From positions 310,001 through 374,000 of the forward strand of contig JAQWTL010000007.1 of the NCBI GenBank assembly GCA_029242715.1: a stretch of 64,000 nt of DNA, written 5' to 3'. This DNA comes from Phycisphaerales bacterium. GTDB taxonomy: Bacteria; Planctomycetota; Phycisphaerae; Phycisphaerales; SM1A02. The position numbers and the translations under genes were made by a program. Within the stretch, counting starts at the first letter, position 1; each line of letters starts with the position of its first letter. The notes under the pieces are model-generated. The model was not told the origin of the DNA, did not search any database, and saw only the letters and a program-made list of their open reading frames with translations. Below are positions 51,021 to 64,000 of the stretch, in pieces.

Positions 51021-51152
51021 GTGAAGGTTCCCGTGGGTAAGTGATCGGCCATTGTAGGGCTTCAGGGCTATGAAAGCGACGACTTGATGACGTGCCCGGG
51101 GCAAGGCCCGGTATCATGCCGCCTACCGCCTGCAGCAACGTCACATACCCCC

Positions 51153-52586
51153 ATGGTCTTCTCCTCCCAGACTTTCCTGTTTTTCTTCCTGCCGGTCGTC
51201 CTGGGCATCTACGCCCTGCTCGGGATCGGGCCCGCGCTCCGGAATCTCTGGCTCCTGATTGCCAGCCTTGTGTTCTACACATGGGGAGGCGGCGATTTCG
51301 TAATCGTGCTTCTGATCTCGATTGGGGGCAACTGGTTCCTGGGCCTCCTTGCTGATCGCGCGAGGGGCACCGGCAGCAACATTGTCAAAAACGGTTCGAT
51401 TGCGCTTTCGGTCATTCTGAACATCGGCATCCTCGCCTGGTTCAAGTACGCCAACTTCTTCGTTGACCAGATGAATGATGTTGGCACAAGCATCGGCATG
51501 GATGAAATCCTCTGGACAGACATCGTCCTTCCGATCGGCATTTCCTTCTTCACCTTCCAGGCAACTTCTTACGTGATTGATGTCGCCCGCGGCCAGGCGA
51601 AGGTGATGCTCAATCCAATCGATTTCGCGCTCTATGTGTCACTGTTCCCCCAGTTGATCGCCGGCCCGATCGTCCGCTACCACGAGATCAGCACGCAGCT
51701 CAAATCGCGACCATTTGACTGGGACAATGTTTCTTCAGGAACCATTCGATTCGCCCATGGACTTGTCAAGAAAGTCGTCATCGCTGACAGCGTGGGGGTC
51801 ATCGCGGATGCAGCCTTTGCAACCGATGCCCAACTGAATGCCGGTGATGCCTGGATCGGGCTTCTTGCCTACACGCTCCAGATCTACTTCGACTTCTCCG
51901 GCTACAGCGACATGGCCATCGGTATGGGGCGCATGTTCGGTTTCAAACTTCCGGAGAACTTCAAGCGGCCCTACTCGGCCATCTGCATGACGGACTTCTG
52001 GCGACGGTGGCATGTCACCCTGTCCAACTGGTTCCGTGACTATGTCTACATTCCGCTGGGTGGTTCACGGTGTTCCAAGTCGAGAACCTATGCCAATCTC
52101 GTGATCGTGTTCCTGCTGACTGGTTTCTGGCATGGCGCCAACTGGACCTTCATTATCTGGGGCATCTACAACGGATTCTGGCTGATCTGCGATCGACTGA
52201 CCGGACAAACTCGTCCTGAGATGCTTGGCTGGGTCCCCTTCCGTCGACTGGCGACCTTCTTCGTCGTCATGATGGGATGGGTGGTCTTCAGAGCAGTGGA
52301 TATCTCGCATGCCGGTGATTACTACGCCACACTCTTCGACTTCCCGTTGACCTCGGTTTCCGGAAACCTCAATTCCGTGTTGACCACACAAAGCATCTTC
52401 TTCCTTGTGCTGGGCAGTTTGATTGCACTCATGCCGGGACGAATCAGTACCGGGCGGTGGCTGGATGAATCTGATCACACCGGAGCCGCCATCTTCCGCA
52501 TCGCGCTATCCTGCATATTCCTGCCTCTTGCCCTGATCATCGTGATCGGGGGCACCTTCTCACCATTCCTCTACTTCCAATTCTGA
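51153..52586 (+). CDS. MBOAT O-acyltransferase (AlgI-like), copy 2
   Basis: This 477-residue membrane acyltransferase is a close paralog of copy 1. It shares MVFSSxTFLFFFLP at the start, WFKYANFFVDQM, LPIGISFFTFQATSYVIDVA, FPQLIAGPIVRYHEI, YFDFSGYSDMAIGMGRM, the DFWRRWH segment, the catalytic GFWHGANWTF and the same C-terminal GTFSPFLYFQF. The length is identical. It is coupled to an SGNH partner whose ATG overlaps its stop (TGATG). ATG at 51153 is chosen because it aligns with copy 1; the frame is open further upstream. A TATCAT hexamer near 51112 could be a -10 element. Confidence 0.93.
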   Translation: MVFSSQTFLFFFLPVVLGIYALLGIGPALRNLWLLIASLVFYTWGGGDFVIVLLISIGGNWFLGLLADRARGTGSNIVKNGSIALSVILNIGILAWFKYANFFVDQMNDVGTSIGMDEILWTDIVLPIGISFFTFQATSYVIDVARGQAKVMLNPIDFALYVSLFPQLIAGPIVRYHEISTQLKSRPFDWDNVSSGTIRFAHGLVKKVVIADSVGVIADAAFATDAQLNAGDAWIGLLAYTLQIYFDFSGYSDMAIGMGRMFGFKLPENFKRPYSAICMTDFWRRWHVTLSNWFRDYVYIPLGGSRCSKSRTYANLVIVFLLTGFWHGANWTFIIWGIYNGFWLICDRLTGQTRPEMLGWVPFRRLATFFVVMMGWVVFRAVDISHAGDYYATLFDFPLTSVSGNLNSVLTTQSIFFLVLGSLIALMPGRISTGRWLDESDHTGAAIFRIALSCIFLPLALIIVIGGTFSPFLYFQF

Positions 52587-54217
52587 TGTCAAAACCAGGA
52601 AATTCATTTGCGGGCATCGTCATACTCGTGCTGCTTTGCGGCCCGGTTGTCCTGTCTCCTTTCCTGTTTGAACGGAATGCCACCTTCATACGCGAGGTAG
52701 AGAACCGGGAACCAACCTCCTTCCCGGAGATCGAGAGCGCAAGTGACACATTGGACACAGCGAAATGGGATGGTCTGTCCAGTTGGCTGAGGGAGCATGT
52801 TCCTTTCCGTGGAGATCTCATTGCCGGGAAGACCTGGGTTGAAATTGAACTGCTCGGGCAACGTCGCATCGGCGCAGTCGACCGAGGTGATGATGGCTGG
52901 CTCTTCATCCTGCAGAGCTATGGAGGTCATTGGCATCAGCCTGGAAGAAATGTCACCGAAGCAATCGATGGCTTGAACCACTTCCTGGCAAGAAATGCCA
53001 ATTCATCCACGACATTCCGAGTGCTTCTGACACCTGACAAGCACACCATCTATCCCGAGCACCTCACCCGTGATGGACGGCGTGACATCAGCCATACCGC
53101 AGCGGATCGGGCGCGTTTCGAAGAATGGTTCGCCCAGGAAGATGATGATCGCATCATTGACCTCCATGCCGCCATGCGGGAGTCCAAGGAGAACGTGGGA
53201 AAAGAACTCTATTTCCGGGATGACACCCACCAGAACTGGCATGGTGGCAGCGTCATGGCGAAAGCAATCGTTGATTCGATTCAACCTGGAACCTGGGATG
53301 ATTCCAGTGTGATCAAGACCCAGACGATCAAGTATCCCGGCGATCTTCGTTCACTCTGTGGGTTGACCTCGATGCCTATGCGGCAGAAGGAAGTCATGGT
53401 CACTGCGAGAGCAGGTGTTTTGCCTCAGCAGGTGACGTTTGAAGGCAACGTATTTGATGACTTTGAGGCGGTAGACAAGGATCCACACAGTTGGCAGTGT
53501 CCTGTTCGTTCGACATTCGCATCAACTGAGGGTCTTCCGCTGATACCCGGACGAACGCTCATTATGCATGATTCATGCATTGGCTCTATTGCCAGACCTT
53601 TGATTCGCCCCTACTTCGAAGACATCACGTTCATGCATTACTCGGATGCGACACCGGAATCCATCGAGCAGGCATTAGAGGAATATGACACCGTGGTTCT
53701 CGAAGTAGTTGAACGTATTGCCCCTGAGACCTTCGTACGACTCATGGCCGATCCAGACCCCGATGCGCCGTCCCTGGTCTGGCAACGTGATGAAGCGAAA
53801 CCGGTCTGGTCGTTGCTTGATACGGGACCTGAAAAAATGTTCCCGGCTGATGGCGTCGTCGCAACCCTGGAAAACGGGCGAATCACGACGCAGTCAACTG
53901 GAATCTCGTCCGCAATCGTATTCAACGACCTCCAACTGCCCGCGGATCATCGACACGTGGCTAGGATTCTCTTGGATTCACCCGGCCTGGGACAATCCTC
54001 CTTGTTCTGGTCCGCAGAGTCCGAGGAAATGTCCCCGGATCGAAGTGACTCGAAACCGATTCGTGGCGGACTCAGCGAACTCTTCCTTGAAATGCGATCC
54101 GATCAGCCGATTACGAGCATCATGTTCGAACCTGGTGGTGGCACCGGTGAACATGTCATTGAATCCATTGAGATTCGAAGCATTCCCCTGGACTCGGAAC
54201 CACCGACCAGCTCCTGA
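52586..54217 (+). CDS. AlgX/AlgJ-like SGNH acyltransferase, copy 2
   Basis: The 543-residue product has a single N-terminal membrane anchor (AGIVILVLLCGPVVLSPFLF) and a periplasmic domain with GDDGWLFI near residue 105, TFRVLLTPDKHTIYPE, the DTH motif in YFRDDTHQNWHGGSV, and LIMHDSCIGSIARPL with the probable Ser nucleophile. About 150 residues beyond the catalytic core (roughly 390-543) form an extra C-terminal domain not present in copy 1, perhaps carbohydrate-binding. It starts on the last base of the MBOAT stop. The two paralogous pairs may acylate different sugars or positions. Confidence 0.85.
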   Translation: MSKPGNSFAGIVILVLLCGPVVLSPFLFERNATFIREVENREPTSFPEIESASDTLDTAKWDGLSSWLREHVPFRGDLIAGKTWVEIELLGQRRIGAVDRGDDGWLFILQSYGGHWHQPGRNVTEAIDGLNHFLARNANSSTTFRVLLTPDKHTIYPEHLTRDGRRDISHTAADRARFEEWFAQEDDDRIIDLHAAMRESKENVGKELYFRDDTHQNWHGGSVMAKAIVDSIQPGTWDDSSVIKTQTIKYPGDLRSLCGLTSMPMRQKEVMVTARAGVLPQQVTFEGNVFDDFEAVDKDPHSWQCPVRSTFASTEGLPLIPGRTLIMHDSCIGSIARPLIRPYFEDITFMHYSDATPESIEQALEEYDTVVLEVVERIAPETFVRLMADPDPDAPSLVWQRDEAKPVWSLLDTGPEKMFPADGVVATLENGRITTQSTGISSAIVFNDLQLPADHRHVARILLDSPGLGQSSLFWSAESEEMSPDRSDSKPIRGGLSELFLEMRSDQPITSIMFEPGGGTGEHVIESIEIRSIPLDSEPPTSS

Positions 54218-55131: not shown

Positions 55132-55791
55132 TCAGGAGCGGTTTCGCCGTCGCCCTGTGATTGTCATGGGCAACAGCAGGAGCAGTCCCATGGATGGTCC
55201 CGGCACTGAAACGCCATAGATGGCGAAGCTGCTGACCCCTGTCACTGGCTGAGATCCATCCCAATCGAAGGTGATATCGCCCTTGAGTCTCCAGATACCT
55301 TCCAGCTCAGCATCGCTGAGCAGGAGATCGATCCGGTCTGCCGTTGCATTGGCCAGAATATCCGTATCCAGAGGGACACCATTCAATACCCAGTTGTCTA
55401 CCGTCAACGAAACATCATCCACCTGGGCGGAGAAAAGCAAACTGTCCAGATTCTGGAGTGCCATGCTCCAGGAAACCAATTCGACATCCGTCGCTGATTC
55501 ACGTACCTCGTAGCTGAGTTCCTGCAAACTTGGATTCCAACTGAGCTGCCAGCCATAGGTCTGTCCGGGCAACCACTCATTCAAAGTCGAGGAGACCGGT
55601 GGGCCACCGGGAGGTCCTATCGAGATATGAGAATCATCGGCTGTCAGAACGGAATCTGCAGCAAACAGAGATCCTGCCATGTAGCTTTCAGCCTCTGACG
55701 CAGACAGGGACTCCAAAGGCAACGAATCACCACCTGGCCCCCATGAGGCAAGTGCCATGCAACAGACAGCTGTTTCGATCGTGGCGATCAT
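55132..55791 (-). CDS. PEP-CTERM-type exported protein, unknown function
   Basis: This is a 219-residue protein with a short N-terminal signal region (MIATIETAVCCMALASWG), a beta-rich body without recognisable domains, and a C-terminus of the PEP-CTERM kind: VPGPSMGLLLLLPMTITGRRR, a VPxPS-like motif, a hydrophobic helix and a basic tail. Such proteins are processed and anchored by exosortase; no exosortase gene is in the window. The coupled lipoprotein downstream may act with it. Function unknown. Confidence 0.75.
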   Translation of the reverse strand: MIATIETAVCCMALASWGPGGDSLPLESLSASEAESYMAGSLFAADSVLTADDSHISIGPPGGPPVSSTLNEWLPGQTYGWQLSWNPSLQELSYEVRESATDVELVSWSMALQNLDSLLFSAQVDDVSLTVDNWVLNGVPLDTDILANATADRIDLLLSDAELEGIWRLKGDITFDWDGSQPVTGVSSFAIYGVSVPGPSMGLLLLLPMTITGRRRNRS

Positions 55792-57465: not shown

Positions 57466-59274
57466 ATGATGATTATCACGAGAGCAGGCCTCGCCTGCAG
57501 TTTGGCACTGGTGACAACAAGCGCCTCCATTGCCGATGTCAACAGCCTTTCGATCCAGACAACCAACAACTGGGAAGACGGGCACAGTGGCGAAATAAAG
57601 TTTGTAAATGATGGCAATGAAGCCATTGATGGCTGGAACTTCTGGTTTGAAGACGGTCCTGGCATCACATCTGCCTGGAACTGCCAGTGGTCCGCCGATG
57701 GCAATCGTGACACTTTTATTGATGACGGTTGGAATAGCACAGTTAATCCTGGTGAGACCGTAAGCATCGGTTACCAGGCGACTGGCGTACTTGAAGAAAC
57801 AATATCGGCGGCCGAGTTCAATGGTCTGCCGATTGAAATCATCTATCAGGGGACTGACGATGGTGAAGACGATGGCGATGATGGTGATGAAGATGATGGT
57901 GATGATGGAAATACAACGCCGGGCTGTCCTGGCGACACGGACGGCAATGGCACGGTTGATGTAACAGATATCCTGGCCATCCTTGACGGTTGGGGCCCTT
58001 GCCAATCATGCGCAGCAGATATCGATGGCAATAATGTAATTGATGTTGATGACATGCTCGCAGTCCTGGCCGCCTGGGGCGACTGCCCCGCTACCGGACC
58101 AACCAACAAGAGAATCGTTGGTTACTACATCGAATGGGGCATCTATGGACGGGACTACCATCCAGCAGACATGCCGCTCGACAAGATCACACACGTAAAC
58201 TACGCCTTTGCCAATATTGGTGATGATGGCCGAATTGCCATAGGTGATCCCTATGCAGCCATTGATCGTGCCTATCCCGGTGACACCTGGGAACAGCCTT
58301 ACCGTGGCACATATAACCAGCTGAACAATGTCCTGAAGGCCCAGTACCCTCATTTGAAAACGTTGATTTCCGTTGGTGGCTGGACGTGGTCGGGCAAATT
58401 TTCAGATGTTGCTGAAACGCCGGAATCACGACAGGTCTTCGCAGAATCCTGCGTCGAATTCATTCGCACCTACAACTTTGATGGTGTTGACATCGACTGG
58501 GAATATCCCGTGTGCTGTGGTCTGTCAGGTAACACGTACCGGCCAGAGGATCGAGAGAACTACACATTCCTTGCAGAAGAACTACGCACACAGCTGGATG
58601 CCGCTGGTGCTGAGGATGGTCGTGAATATCTCCTGACGATTGCCGCTGCAGGTGGTGTCGACAAATTGGAGAACTATGAGCTTGCAGAACTGGCTTCCCA
58701 CCTGGACTGGGTAAACACCATGTCCTATGACTTCATGGGTACCTGGGATCTGTCCCTGACCGGACACCACAGCCCCTTGTACGCCAACCCTGCAAACCCA
58801 TCTCCGAATCCCAATGTCCGAAACTTCTACAACGCTCATGAATCGATCTCGCCATGGCTGGACGCTGGCGTCGCTGCCGACAAGATTGTCATGGGTGTGC
58901 CCTTCTATGGGCGAGCATGGGGTGGCGTAAATTCGGATAACAACGGCCTGTATCAATCGGCCACACTGGTTCCTCCAGGAACCTGGGATGACTGGTCGAG
59001 TGGTGCCACAGGCATGAACGACTACACCGAGATCGCCTCGTTCATCGCTTCCGGCAACTATTTTCGGTTCTGGGACGACGTTTCAAAGGTGCCATGGGCC
59101 TGGAGTCCAACCAGCCATGGAGGTCACTTCATCACATATGACGATCCGGAGTCGATCCAGTTGAAGATGGATTACATCAAGGAAAATGGCCTTGGTGGAG
59201 CCATGTTCTGGGAAGTCACCGCCGATCGGGAGGCTGAGCTCCTCGACGTGATCTACCAGGCCCTGGAAGACTGA
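57466..59274 (+). CDS. Secreted GH18 chitinase with CBM and dockerin-like repeats
   Basis: The 602-residue exported enzyme cleaves beta-1,4-GlcNAc linkages. Domains in order: signal peptide (1-23), a CBM2-like carbohydrate-binding module (about 25-125, with WNFWFEDGPGITSAWNCQW and NPGETVSIGYQ), an acidic Asp/Gly linker (about 128-149), two dockerin-like calcium repeats (GDTDGNGTVDVTDILAILDG and ADIDGNNVIDVDDMLAVLAA, about 155-205), and a GH18 catalytic domain from about 215. The catalytic motif is FDGVDIDWEYP with Glu346 as acid/base. TLISVGGWTWSGKF, MSYDFMGTWD and GGAMFWEVTADRE are also family landmarks. GAGAGG lies 9 nt before the ATG. Cytosolic use of the released GlcNAc is not encoded here. 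Confidence 0.93.
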   Translation: MMIITRAGLACSLALVTTSASIADVNSLSIQTTNNWEDGHSGEIKFVNDGNEAIDGWNFWFEDGPGITSAWNCQWSADGNRDTFIDDGWNSTVNPGETVSIGYQATGVLEETISAAEFNGLPIEIIYQGTDDGEDDGDDGDEDDGDDGNTTPGCPGDTDGNGTVDVTDILAILDGWGPCQSCAADIDGNNVIDVDDMLAVLAAWGDCPATGPTNKRIVGYYIEWGIYGRDYHPADMPLDKITHVNYAFANIGDDGRIAIGDPYAAIDRAYPGDTWEQPYRGTYNQLNNVLKAQYPHLKTLISVGGWTWSGKFSDVAETPESRQVFAESCVEFIRTYNFDGVDIDWEYPVCCGLSGNTYRPEDRENYTFLAEELRTQLDAAGAEDGREYLLTIAAAGGVDKLENYELAELASHLDWVNTMSYDFMGTWDLSLTGHHSPLYANPANPSPNPNVRNFYNAHESISPWLDAGVAADKIVMGVPFYGRAWGGVNSDNNGLYQSATLVPPGTWDDWSSGATGMNDYTEIASFIASGNYFRFWDDVSKVPWAWSPTSHGGHFITYDDPESIQLKMDYIKENGLGGAMFWEVTADREAELLDVIYQALED

Positions 59275-59466: not shown

Positions 59467-61197
59467 GTGAGCAAGATTCCTGTGACCGTCATCCTTCCAG
59501 TAAAGGATGATGCCGAAACAGTTGCCAGCAGCCTGGCTCGCCTGAAACGATTCCAGAAGATCGTCGTCGTCGATTCCGACAGCAAAGACGGAACAGACAA
59601 GGTGGCCGCAGAACATGGCGCCGAATATGTGATCTTCAACTGGAACGGTAAACCGCCCAAGAAACGCACCTGGTATCTCGACAACCATGAGATCGAGACG
59701 GAGTGGGTGCTCTTTCTGGATGCCGATGAACTCGTGAATGACGCCTTCTGCGACGAAGTCGAACGTTCCACGGCTTCTGGCAAGTACGTGGGCTTCTGGA
59801 TGACCTTCCAGAACTGGTTCATGGGCAGATGGCTTCGCCACGGTGATCCATTTTCAAAGCTCGCTCTCTTCCGCCATGACTCGGGTCGATATGAGCGGGT
59901 GGCTGATGAACGGTGGACGACCATCGACGTTGAGGTGCATGAGCACCCGATTCTTGACGGGCCTGTTGGCAAGATCCACGCCCCCGTTGCTCACGATGAG
60001 CGCAGAGGCATGGATTCCTACATTGGCAAGCACAATGAATACTCGACATGGGAAGCCAATCGCTTCATTGCCCTGGAGCCCAAAGGCGATCGTTCCTGGA
60101 ATGCCCTGACACGACGCCAGCAATTCAAGTACCTCCACGTGGACAAGTGGTGGTTCGCAACGGTTTACTTCCTTCATGCATTCATCATGAAACGCGGGTT
60201 TCTCGATGGTCGTTCTGGTTTCATATTCGCCTCCCTGAAAAGGGAGTACTACAGCCATATCAGACTGAAAATCCTTGAGATTCGGAACAAGGTGCTGATG
60301 GACTCCAGTGAAAGCCAGACCGAACACATCACTGGCAACACGACGGAGAAGGACATACCGGTCACCCTTATTGTGCCGGTCAAGAATGAAGCCAAGAATC
60401 TGGCCTGCTGCCTCGAGCGGCTCAAGAGATTTCAGGAAGTCGTCGTCGTCGATTCGGGCAGTACGGATGCCACTATCGAGATTGCCAAGTCATATGGCGC
60501 CAAGTGCGTCCAGTTCGAATGGAATGGTCGTTTTCCCAAAAAGCGAAACTGGTACCTTGAGAATCATGAAGTCAGCACTGACTGGGTCCTTTTCCTGGAC
60601 GCAGATGAACTGATCAACGATGACTTCTGCGAAGAAGTCAAGAAGGCTGTCGCTACGAAAACCCATGTTGGCTATTGGCTCAACTTCCACAACTGGTTCC
60701 AGGGAAAATATCTCCGTCACGGGGACCCGTTCTCCAAGCTCGCGCTCTTCCGACCTGACGCAGGACGTTATGAGCGAATAGATGATGAGCAATGGAGCAA
60801 GCTGGATATGGAAATCCATGAACACCCCGTTCTTGATGGAACAGTGGGATACCTCAAATCGCCCATTGATCACAATGACCGGCGTGGATTGAGTTCCTAT
60901 ATCAATAAACACAACGAATACTCGACATGGGAAGCGCGTCGCCAGATCGACATGGATTCCAGTAGAGGCAAGACCTGGAAATCGCTCACCCGACGGCAGC
61001 AATTCAAGTACAAGCATGTTGAGAAATGGTGGTTCAAGTGGGTGTACTTCTTCGTCGCCTTCATCATGAAACTTGGCATCCTGGATGGTTGGTCTGGATT
61101 TGTATTCGCCTCTCTGAAGCGGCAGTACTACGGCCACATTCGCCTGAAAGTCCGTGAATTCCGTGAACTTGAATCTCAAGGTGATTCGTCACGCTAG
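59467..61197 (+). CDS. Glycosyltransferase made of two tandem GT2 domains
   Basis: The 576-residue product consists of two similar GT-A units. Unit 1 (about 1-285) has VILPVKDDAETVASSLARL, VVVDSDSKDGTDKVA, WVLFLDADELVNDAF and WMTFQNWFMGRWLRHGD. Unit 2 (about 300-576) repeats this as LIVPVKNEAKNLACCLERL, VVVDSGSTDATIEIA, WVLFLDADELINDDF and WLNFHNWFQGKYLRHGD, and each ends with a SLTRRQQFKY-like segment and a short hydrophobic stretch. The DADE metal motif is intact in both. The style is that of WaaE/LgtF-like core glucosyltransferases. I chose the GTG at 59467 after GGGGGG; an ATG at 59434 gives 11 more residues. The gene may add two sugars in turn. Confidence 0.88.
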   Translation: MSKIPVTVILPVKDDAETVASSLARLKRFQKIVVVDSDSKDGTDKVAAEHGAEYVIFNWNGKPPKKRTWYLDNHEIETEWVLFLDADELVNDAFCDEVERSTASGKYVGFWMTFQNWFMGRWLRHGDPFSKLALFRHDSGRYERVADERWTTIDVEVHEHPILDGPVGKIHAPVAHDERRGMDSYIGKHNEYSTWEANRFIALEPKGDRSWNALTRRQQFKYLHVDKWWFATVYFLHAFIMKRGFLDGRSGFIFASLKREYYSHIRLKILEIRNKVLMDSSESQTEHITGNTTEKDIPVTLIVPVKNEAKNLACCLERLKRFQEVVVVDSGSTDATIEIAKSYGAKCVQFEWNGRFPKKRNWYLENHEVSTDWVLFLDADELINDDFCEEVKKAVATKTHVGYWLNFHNWFQGKYLRHGDPFSKLALFRPDAGRYERIDDEQWSKLDMEIHEHPVLDGTVGYLKSPIDHNDRRGLSSYINKHNEYSTWEARRQIDMDSSRGKTWKSLTRRQQFKYKHVEKWWFKWVYFFVAFIMKLGILDGWSGFVFASLKRQYYGHIRLKVREFRELESQGDSSR

Positions 61198-61218: not shown

Positions 61219-62358
61219 ATGTCGCATTATGAAGTCATCGTGATTGGAGTTGGATGCATGGGGGCTTCCGCCTGTGCTTCCATTGCGCAGCGTGGCGTCA
61301 AGGTTCTTGGCATCGAGCAGTACACCATTCCCCATGACATGGGATCCAGTGGCTACCAGTCACGGATTTTTCGCATCGCCTACTACGAACATGCCGACTA
61401 TGTCCCACTCCTGAAAGAGGCGCATACGGGTTGGCTTGAACTGAATCAGGTTGCGGACCAAACGGTCTTTCATGAAACAGGTGGACTCTACATGGGGCCC
61501 CAGGGCGGTGACTTCGTGGAGCATTCCCAGTCATCTGCAAAGGCACACGATCTTGAATTCGAACGTATGGATGCCCAGACCATTCGAAACAGATTCCCGG
61601 TATTCAACATCCCTGATTCATTCGCTGGCATATTTGAACAGCCTGCAGGTATTGTTTTTCCTGAACGGGCCATCGAAGCCCAGGCTCGAATCGCACGAAA
61701 GCATGGCGCAGAACTGCTTGAAGACACCAGGGTCAACAGTTGGAAAGAAGAAGATGGATGCATCACTGTTGAAAGCTCTGGGGGGACCTTCACCTGTGAT
61801 CGACTGGTGATCTGCAGCGGCGCCTGGACCCAGAAACTCTGCCCAGATCTTCCATTGAGCGTTTCACGGCAAGTCATAGGATGGATGCAGACGTCAGACC
61901 CTGAATTGATTACCTGGCCGAACCTGGTCACCTGGGCCATTGAACTGCCCGATCAATCACTGCTCTATGGCTTCCCTTTGATGGATCAACTCGACGGTCC
62001 TGCCGGTTTCAAGATGGCCCGTCATCTTCCCGGTGAAACCTCGGATCCGGACACCATGGATCGAACGCCTCGTGAAGACGAGGAATCGAGTTTTCTGGAA
62101 TATGCCAAGCAACATCTCCCGAGCATCATCGGAGAGATCACCGATCTGAAGATCTGTCTGTACACCAATACTCCCGACAAGCATTTCATCATCGATCATC
62201 ACCCGGAACATGACCATGTGTTCATTGCTGCTGGGTTCAGTGGGCACGGCTTCAAGTTTCAGCCAATTGTCGGCAGGATTCTGGCTGATCTTGCAATCGA
62301 TGGGTGCACTGGACATCCCATTGAATTTCTCAGCATGGATCGATTCAAGACAGGCTGA
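61219..62358 (+). CDS. FAD-dependent oxidase (sarcosine/N-methyltryptophan oxidase-like)
   Basis: This 379-residue DAO-family flavoenzyme has the dinucleotide motif VIVIGVGCMGASACASIAQR at the N-terminus and GIEQYTIPHDMGSSGYQSRI, close to monomeric sarcosine oxidase. KICLYTNTPDKHFIIDHHP contains the Cys that carries covalent flavin in MSOX, and VFIAAGFSGHGFKFQPIVGR is the conserved C-terminal FAD segment. It oxidises the C-N bond of an N-methyl amino acid or similar secondary amine. A TTG at 61201 is another start. The stop abuts the arnD stop back to back (TGATCA). No demethylation pathway genes are adjacent, so its physiological substrate is open. Confidence 0.9.
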   Translation: MSHYEVIVIGVGCMGASACASIAQRGVKVLGIEQYTIPHDMGSSGYQSRIFRIAYYEHADYVPLLKEAHTGWLELNQVADQTVFHETGGLYMGPQGGDFVEHSQSSAKAHDLEFERMDAQTIRNRFPVFNIPDSFAGIFEQPAGIVFPERAIEAQARIARKHGAELLEDTRVNSWKEEDGCITVESSGGTFTCDRLVICSGAWTQKLCPDLPLSVSRQVIGWMQTSDPELITWPNLVTWAIELPDQSLLYGFPLMDQLDGPAGFKMARHLPGETSDPDTMDRTPREDEESSFLEYAKQHLPSIIGEITDLKICLYTNTPDKHFIIDHHPEHDHVFIAAGFSGHGFKFQPIVGRILADLAIDGCTGHPIEFLSMDRFKTG

Positions 62359-63246
62359 TCAGCCTTCGTCCCCGACGACAGCAACCCATCCTTCACGTCC
62401 ATCAACATGCCCCTGCAAGATGGGGCGTCTTGGCAGCTCCCCGCTGTCCCCGACCATCTGGCCAAGCGGGACAATCGTGCGACCCATCTCCATGGCTCGA
62501 TCCAGAAACTCCTCGAACATGTCCGCCTTGGACATTCCCTCAGCCTCTGCATGGATCGTGAGAACCTCATCATGATCAGGTCGCATCGAATCAAGCATGA
62601 AACTGTTGTACTGCTGATCGGAAATCTGGCCCGCAACCTCATCCCAGGTCGGCAGAGTCACGGGCACCTGTGGTTGTTCAAGACAGGTTCCGTTGATCAA
62701 TGGGAGAAATGGGCCACAACGGCCTCGGCAATCGCTGTTGTATTGAAATGGAAATGACGACTTGATCTCCAGGACATCATTTGTGCATCGCCAGCCAGCT
62801 GAAGCAGAACAGGACGGCGTCTTGCCGATGATTTCGGCCAGCAATTCAAAAGCAGATTGAGTTTCTCCTGCCAGGGCCGTGGCCCCCATGCGTTCCACGG
62901 CAACCTGCCAACGATGGTGGTCCCAGGCATGGACTCCGATTTCATGGCCAGCATCAGCCGTTTCACGAATCACCGCTGAGAGCTTCTGGCCGATACGGGG
63001 ACCCGGCCAGATTGTTCCACGCAGCAGGATGTCCCAGCCATAAAGACTGCCTGCCCGTGTCCGCATCATCTTGCGAAGAAAAGTTGGCTTCAGAAGTCTG
63101 AAAAGATGCCGGCCCATGTTGTCGGGCCCCATCGTGAAGAAGAAGCTTGCCTGAAGCCCACGGGATTCCAGGATGTGACACAGCCGCGGCACGCCATGTC
63201 GCGTGCCCCGAAAGGTGTCTACATCAATTCGAAGTCCCAAACGCAT
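62359..63246 (-). CDS. arnD: ArnD-like deformylase (polysaccharide deacetylase family)
   Basis: The 295-residue protein matches ArnD, which removes the formyl group from undecaprenyl-phosphate-4-deoxy-4-formamido-L-arabinose. The NodB-fold motifs are LRIDVDTFRGTRHGVP (metal-binding Asp), SFFFTMGPDNMGRHLFRLL, SLYGWDILLRGT, GHEIGVHAWDHHRWQ (HxxxH-type His pair) and a C-terminal LTIHAEAEGM. ATG at 63246 gives the usual N-terminus; GTG at 63252 and TTG at 63261 overlapping the arnA stop are possible. It follows arnA directly, as in known arn operons. It contributes to Ara4N modification of lipid A. Confidence 0.9.
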   Translation of the reverse strand: MRLGLRIDVDTFRGTRHGVPRLCHILESRGLQASFFFTMGPDNMGRHLFRLLKPTFLRKMMRTRAGSLYGWDILLRGTIWPGPRIGQKLSAVIRETADAGHEIGVHAWDHHRWQVAVERMGATALAGETQSAFELLAEIIGKTPSCSASAGWRCTNDVLEIKSSFPFQYNSDCRGRCGPFLPLINGTCLEQPQVPVTLPTWDEVAGQISDQQYNSFMLDSMRPDHDEVLTIHAEAEGMSKADMFEEFLDRAMEMGRTIVPLGQMVGDSGELPRRPILQGHVDGREGWVAVVGDEG

Positions 63247-63257
63247 GGGCACAGGAC

Positions 63258-64000
63258 TCAACGGCTTGCCGCCGTCTCCGCTTCATAGGTCTCGATCCCA
63301 TGCTGGACCGCCCAGTCTCGAAGGAACCAGTCCAGTGTCCTGGCAACCGAATCACGTGTCTTGACCTGTGGACGCCATCCGACATATCGAAGGGCATTTC
63401 GGATACTGGGACGACGATGTTGGACATCCTCGTAGCCCTTCCCGTAATAGGAACGACTCTCGATCTCCTTGAAACCTGCAAACGGTGGGAAATGCGATCG
63501 TAATGGATGGGACTCGAACTCTTCGACCAGCATCTCTGCCAGTTCACGAATGCTCGCCTCGTTATCCGGGTTGCCGACATTGATGATCTTGCCGTTGCAT
63601 CGATCATCTTCGTTCTCGATGATTCTGAAGAGGCAATCAACGCCCTCATCAACTTCCGTGAAGCACCGCTTCTGCTGACCACCGTCAACAAGAAGGATCG
63701 GAGTGCCTTCCACGAGATTGAGAATCAACTGCGTGATCGCGCGGGATGATCCGATGCGAGCGGAATCAAGAGTATCCAGTCTCGGGCCAATCCAGTTGAA
63801 TGGCCTGAAGAGTGTGAACTTGAGATTCTCATGCTGGCCGTAGGCCCAGATGACTCGATCCAGCAACTGCTTGGAGCATGAATAGATCCAACGCTGCCTG
63901 TTGATCGGTCCGGTTACCAGAGTGGATGTGTCCTCGTCGAAATAGTCGTCCTTGCACATGCCATAGACCTCGGAGGTCGATGGGAAGATGATCCGCCGGC
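63258..64000 (-). CDS. arnA: ArnA C-terminal (UDP-glucuronate decarboxylase) domain, partial
   Basis: The reading frame is open to base 64000, so the N-terminal part lies beyond the window; about 247 residues are visible. They match the C-terminal oxidative decarboxylase half of Arn[31 protein letters not shown] (catalytic Tyr and Lys), [37 protein letters not shown] and [14 protein letters not shown]. It converts UDP-glucuronate to UDP-4-keto-arabinose for Ara4N synthesis. Whether the formyltransferase half is fused cannot be seen here. Its stop lies 12 nt before the arnD ATG. Confidence 0.9.

Follow-up and report, generated by a model that had tools for sequence, protein, structure and literature searches.

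The chondroitin polymerase K4CP (KfoC; PDB 2z86/2z87) combines two GT2 catalytic units in a single polypeptide, and two catalytic domains for alternating transfer are described for it (PMC13411425). A bi-domain plan is also found in the exostosin EXTL3, one GT domain of which is ineffective, and the authors argue that this plan would preclude processivity (PMC9178029). EXTL3 joins GT47 and GT64, unrelated families, and is eukaryotic, unlike the protein described here; the likeness to one homologue of that protein (genome G002, see below), in which one of two GT domains likewise does not work, is an analogy only. WaaE, the heptose β-1,4-glucosyltransferase of the lipopolysaccharide (LPS) inner core, has the GT2 superfamily and the unit length in common with the units studied here. 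In relatives, members of the same GT2 family also form heterotypic fused pairs (A-B, A-K, A-T, T-A2 and A2-T), with two units in one frame; the subfamily letters (A, B, K, T and A2) are labels of this analysis, and the present gene belongs to B. The halves of the heterotypic pairs come from different subfamilies and are 30%–38% identical where computed, whereas those of the present protein come from one subfamily and are 63% identical. Tandem GT2 is a known architecture, and what is new here is the homotypic variant; no account of the fused protein was found in the literature searched, judged by title or start of abstract.

The gene lies on the plus strand of the window, the stretch of 64,000 nucleotides analysed here, in an open frame that runs from ATG 59434 or GTG 59467 to a stop codon ending at 61197. 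GTG 59467 is probably the start codon of the fused gene, because the alignments of relatives begin at that residue, ATG stands there in G003 and a GGAG- or GGGGG-like stretch lies upstream. By eye, such a stretch precedes the start in five of the six genomes of the genus, and the upstream sequence of G004 is uninformative for the start since it belongs to a longer frame. The resulting frame of 576 amino acids (59467–61197) consists of two GT2 units. BLASTP of half against half showed 169 of 270 residues identical (63%) and 219 of 270 positive with no gaps (E 4e-138), which bears out the whole-length tandem duplication of a GT2 unit put forward in a preliminary description of this DNA. The N-terminal unit (residues 1–274; 59467–60288) and the C-terminal unit (residues 1–274 of that unit; 60346–61167) both exceed the Pfam Glycos_transf_2 (PF00535) cut-off of 23.3 bits, with 34.5 and 70.9 bits, respectively. 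Between them lies a linker of about 19 residues (60289–60345), and a C-terminal tail with the stop codon (61168–61197) completes the open reading frame. The four fused genes of the genus have linkers of different length and sequence, none with a stop codon. The same fused frame was found in two public records (L033 and L034), 76% and 75% identical to the window protein; these were taken as the same genomes as G001 and G005 and were counted once.

Each half of the window protein carries a DXD-type motif, DADE, at 59719–59730 in the N unit and at 60598–60609 in the C unit. A family alignment of 25 sequences, with both window halves among its rows, has 25 invariant columns, and all 25 invariant residues, including DADE, are kept in both units. 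As the preliminary description had held, both units look catalytically intact as far as their conserved residues tell. The closest solved relatives by sequence profile are GmaR (E 2e-21) and SunS (E 2e-13). AlphaFold2 gave low-confidence models, with a mean pLDDT of 48.7 for the C half (6 rows) and 49.1 for the whole protein (3 rows), the alignments being shallow because the sequences were limited to the window, L033 and L034.

Two successive transfers or a processive cycle had been suggested for this architecture. A polymerase that works processively or by alternation, of the chondroitin-synthase (K4CP) or PmHAS type, would agree with two GT2 units in one polypeptide and with a profile match to chondroitin synthase 2z86. 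However, this match is weak and short (residues 377–434, E 8e-5), no stretch passes the threshold by itself, and homology to this solved polymerase over both domains was not found in the profile search. Unlike the domains of K4CP, the window units both come from one subfamily, and no sign of polymerisation was seen. The motif QxxRW is the signature of processive synthases; it was not found by eye in the sequences inspected. Relatives with a single unit are frequent in the family, and in three species the N unit has been maintained with no functional C unit beside it. We regard a polymerase as very improbable; the suggestion of processivity found no support. Two successive transfers are plausible.

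Comparison with WaaE showed 27%–30% identity between the Aeromonas caviae gene at the waaE position and the window halves, in alignments that span most of each half. This reference is a single gene, identified from its neighbours, which were tentatively read as waaF, a wahF-like gene, waaA and coaD; the published neighbours waaF, waaE, wahF, waaA (PMC5372535) fit this arrangement. Orthology with WaaE was rejected, as the A. caviae protein scored 144 bits with a paralogue in the window genome (L002) and 75.5 and 74.7 bits with the two halves. By these comparisons the window gene is WaaE-like, with WaaE itself ruled out; the window gene also differs in having two units and an arn neighbourhood, whereas WaaE has a waa neighbourhood. 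The C half matched 74 plasmid records; identity was 28%–31% among the 15 matches listed, 8 of which are named ‘glycosyltransferase family 2 protein’. One A. caviae ‘plasmid’ record of 4.94 Mb (L099, NZ_AP026896.1) has waaA-, waaF-, waaE- and coaD-like ORFs and is probably a chromosome.

Upstream of the GT gene lies a GH18 chitinase gene with CBM2 (57466–59274, plus strand). Downstream, on the same strand, follows an FAD-dependent amine oxidase (61219–62358), a homologue of which was not found in the G001 and G005 stretches. Convergent with the GT gene is arnD (62359–63261, minus strand), coding for formamido-arabinose-phosphoundecaprenol deformylase (NCBIfam NF011923, 383.9 bits; cut-off 382), followed by arnA (NF005998, 1085 bits; cut-off 777), which occupies 63258–64000 on the minus strand within the window and continues to 65267 in window numbering. 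After arnA, outside the window, come arnC and arnB, whose best matches fall below the NCBIfam cut-offs (472 vs. 529 for ArnC, 585 vs. 631 for ArnB). An identity of the GT gene with ArnC was rejected, since no ArnC model was among the matches of either half up to E 0.01 and the locus has an ArnC-like gene of its own. The order arnD-arnA-arnC-arnB (62359 onward; L035:12359–17458) is an L-Ara4N modification cluster in a Phycisphaerales-type genome. Between GH18 and CBM2 the chitinase carries two GxxDG-like repeats that, by eye, are putatively dockerin-like.

Homologues of the chitinase, arnD and arnA were found in all six stretches of the genus (L035–L040). The single-unit GT gene of genus g61 also sits between chitinase and arn homologues, with chitinase, arnD and arnA in the stretch of G173 (L090) and chitinase, arnA, arnC and arnB in that of G177 (L088). 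In the g53 stretch (G101, L089), oxidase and binding-protein homologues were present and a chitinase or arn homologue was not found, implying that the locus is not shared that far out. In the window genome, the Kdo-transferase domain family has one match and the heptosyltransferase family two, which makes an LPS core plausible. The locus points to an uncharacterised surface-glycan step beside L-Ara4N genes in Phycisphaerales-type bacteria.

A search of 61 genomes included six from the genus of the window, its own (G000) among them. The fused gene is present in four of the six (G000, G001, G002 and G005), and the other two (G003 and G004) have a single unit at the same locus. The N unit is retained in all six, the C unit is absent from G003 and G004, and in G002 the C unit has lost catalytic motifs. 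In unit trees, the single genes of G003 and G004 fell with the N units in one clade (support at least 100/99), separate from a second clade of C units. Across species N groups with N and C with C, which shows that the halves do not homogenise. The C unit of G002, on a long branch, grouped with the other C units (86/88) in the tree without g53 and g61. A tree that places the duplication after the split of G003 and G004 was 52.8 log units worse and was rejected (p-AU 9.9e-06). The identity of arnA to the G000 copy was 92% in G002, 87% in G001, 86% in G005, 83% in G004 and 81% in G003, in agreement with G003 and G004 as the outer pair of the genus. DNA identity between the window halves is 65%, and dS is saturated at 2.5, indicating that the duplication is old. 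A recent or redundant duplication was rejected by the trees, the AU test, the saturated dS and purifying selection (see below); dated against single-domain homologues, the duplication predates the split of the six species and is neither recent nor limited to the window genome.

The trees speak against the alternative named in the preliminary description, that each half is closer to a different single-domain family than to the other half. In the two trees that include both genera g53 and g61 and omit the C unit of G002, N and C stood together apart from the single-unit genes of these genera with support of 99/98 and 97/98. Raw identity gives a less clean picture for the C unit, which is 66% identical to the single-unit relative G175 and 63% to the window N unit. 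A tree joining the C units to the g53 and g61 singles was 7.2 log units worse and was not rejected (p-AU 0.11). These last two results would favour an origin of the C unit by transfer from a g53 or g61 relative, or an older duplication with N lost in those genera; against either stand the best trees, which join N and C, and the position of the g61 single gene, likewise between chitinase and arn homologues. We consider such a history quite unlikely. The simplest reading of the sequence comparisons is that the unit was duplicated at its own locus before the divergence of the six species sampled and that C was then lost in the line of G003 and G004.

That the single gene of G003 and G004 is a chimaera, produced by recombination between the repeats, was also considered and rejected, because recombination would put C-derived residues towards the 3′ end and the pattern is contrary. 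At the 25 columns that separate four N from three C halves, the G003 gene has the N state at 15, the C state at 3 and neither at 7, and the G004 gene at 17, 3 and 5, respectively. The three C matches (110, 112 and 270) look ancestral, since most outgroup rows carry the same state.

Both halves are under purifying selection in G001–G005, the one pair with usable dS (1.2–1.3), where pairwise dN/dS (NG86) was 0.067 for N and 0.048 for C. For G000–G002, at higher dS, the values were 0.053 for N and 0.262 for C. Between six N-type and three C sequences, 13 columns were fixed differently; polarised with five outgroup sequences, all of which have the C state at 7 columns and the N state at 2, the change is derived in N at 7, derived in C at 2 and mixed at 4. 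Most unambiguous derived changes fall on N, which makes N the more derived unit; C keeps more ancestral residues. Five of the seven N-derived changes lie within residues 145–178 (binomial p 0.0005, for a region chosen after seeing the data and therefore given no weight here). In addition, N68 of the PKKRNW loop, nearly invariant in the family, has been replaced by T or S in each of the six N-type sequences.

The claim of a gene-internal duplication kept as one polypeptide is supported. Both units keep 25 of 25 invariants in G000, G001 and G005, whereas the C unit of G002 (L037:9811–10650) has lost 7 of 25, among them S39, D41, T43 and the DA of DADE (GSDD at this place), and is still in frame. 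Compared with the C unit of G000, it is 70% identical in residues 241–270 and 37%–56% elsewhere. With loss or decay of the C unit in three of the six species, these results show that two working sites are not required everywhere. A C unit that has lost catalytic residues yet remains in frame, and is best conserved in its last part, is what would be seen if the second unit served as a scaffold, that is, if one unit held the acceptor or replaced a dimer partner, or if both units formed one linkage, so that the fusion would be a pseudo-dimer with a single product. Further decayed halves are found in the fused genes of G033 and G239. This explanation must be set against the full set of invariants in both units of G000, G001 and G005, the strong purifying selection on both units in G001–G005 and the asymmetry of the fixed differences between them, and we hold it to be rather unlikely. 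The genus offers a natural series at one locus, from a single unit to two intact units to one intact beside one decayed unit, in which the division of work in a fused GT pair, and the point at which a second active site ceases to matter, can be tested.

The reading that we prefer, and to which we give about an even chance, is a bifunctional, non-processive GT2 enzyme of two units, duplicated in place, that adds two successive sugars to a surface glycan. On this reading, one WaaE-like gene at the chitinase-arn locus was duplicated in frame, head to tail, before the six species sampled diverged, and both units stayed in one polypeptide, where each would be a transferase by itself. Both sugars would go, one after the other, onto a single surface glycan that faces the cytoplasm; an LPS core or a lipid-linked saccharide is the likeliest acceptor. 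Since N is the only unit in G003 and G004 and has a decayed C unit as its partner in G002, it should not depend on the product of C; the N unit may act first or independently, with the C unit adding an outer, dispensable residue. The comparisons show the duplication, its position in the tree, selection on both units and the loss or decay of C; from these patterns we infer the two activities, their order and the acceptor.

Paired units, side by side or fused, recur elsewhere in the order. Among 181 family genomes, 66 matched the C half at E 1e-60 and 56 matched the subfamily A protein of G009. Comparison of the lists by eye showed both A and B in 11 of the 181, where 20 would be expected if the two were independent and kinship is ignored. 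The two are fused in one frame in 10 of these 11 genomes (G096, G097 and G162–G169) and lie on different contigs in G187. Subfamilies A and B are seldom together in one genome unless fused. A search of the order covered 121 genomes with selected loci examined, and further frames over 500 amino acids exist, so that the following is no census. A-K fusions were found in G241, G250 and G265, T-A2 fusions in G232 and G234, an A2-T fusion in G256 and an A-T fusion in G008. In G239 a degenerate unit precedes T, and in G033 a degenerate unit (hhalign probability 85%) precedes B. A long open frame proved unreliable as a sign of doubling, as those of G194 (593 amino acids) and G120 (1184 amino acids) hold one unit each. 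The subfamilies formed separate groups with support of 88–100 in a quick tree of 50 rows, which omits G239_1, G033_N and G002_C.

Altogether 23 fused genes were examined, of which 4 are homotypic (all in this genus), 17 are heterotypic and 2 (G033 and G239) have a half too decayed to assign. The DADE motif was lost from one half in 3 of the 22 genes checked for it (G167 was left out), namely from the C half of G002 and the N halves of G033 and G239. In G256, G232 and G234, DADE is kept, but 4–5 other invariants are missing from one half. The decayed halves of G033 and G239 lie at L044:7440–8198 and in the first unit of the frame 2840–4666 of L107, respectively, and their partner halves, like the N half of G002, keep DADE. 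Unfused neighbours were also found, with T and A2-like genes in G205, G209, G214 and G260 and a T pair in G053. That such pairs recur, fused or unfused, suggests a frequent need in these bacteria for two consecutive transfers by enzymes that lie side by side. Tentatively, and with somewhat less than even confidence, we propose that Phycisphaerales use two-step WaaE-like transferases, repeatedly fused from at least five subfamilies in differing orders, to make part of a surface glycan; the genus of the window would have doubled one subfamily, after which the N copy would have gained a new specificity and outlasted the original, and the C copy would have disappeared from two species and become a pseudo-transferase domain in a third.

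Some further features were recorded. In G018 (L049:8232–10634), two adjacent separate genes of another subfamily are 72% identical, a tandem duplication without fusion. In the window, an MBOAT acyltransferase is followed by an AlgX-like protein (51084–54217), as in alginate-type O-acetylation, and the ORF 55132–55791 (minus strand) ends in VPGPS, a hydrophobic stretch and an RRR tail, which by eye resembles a putative PEP-CTERM-type sorting signal.
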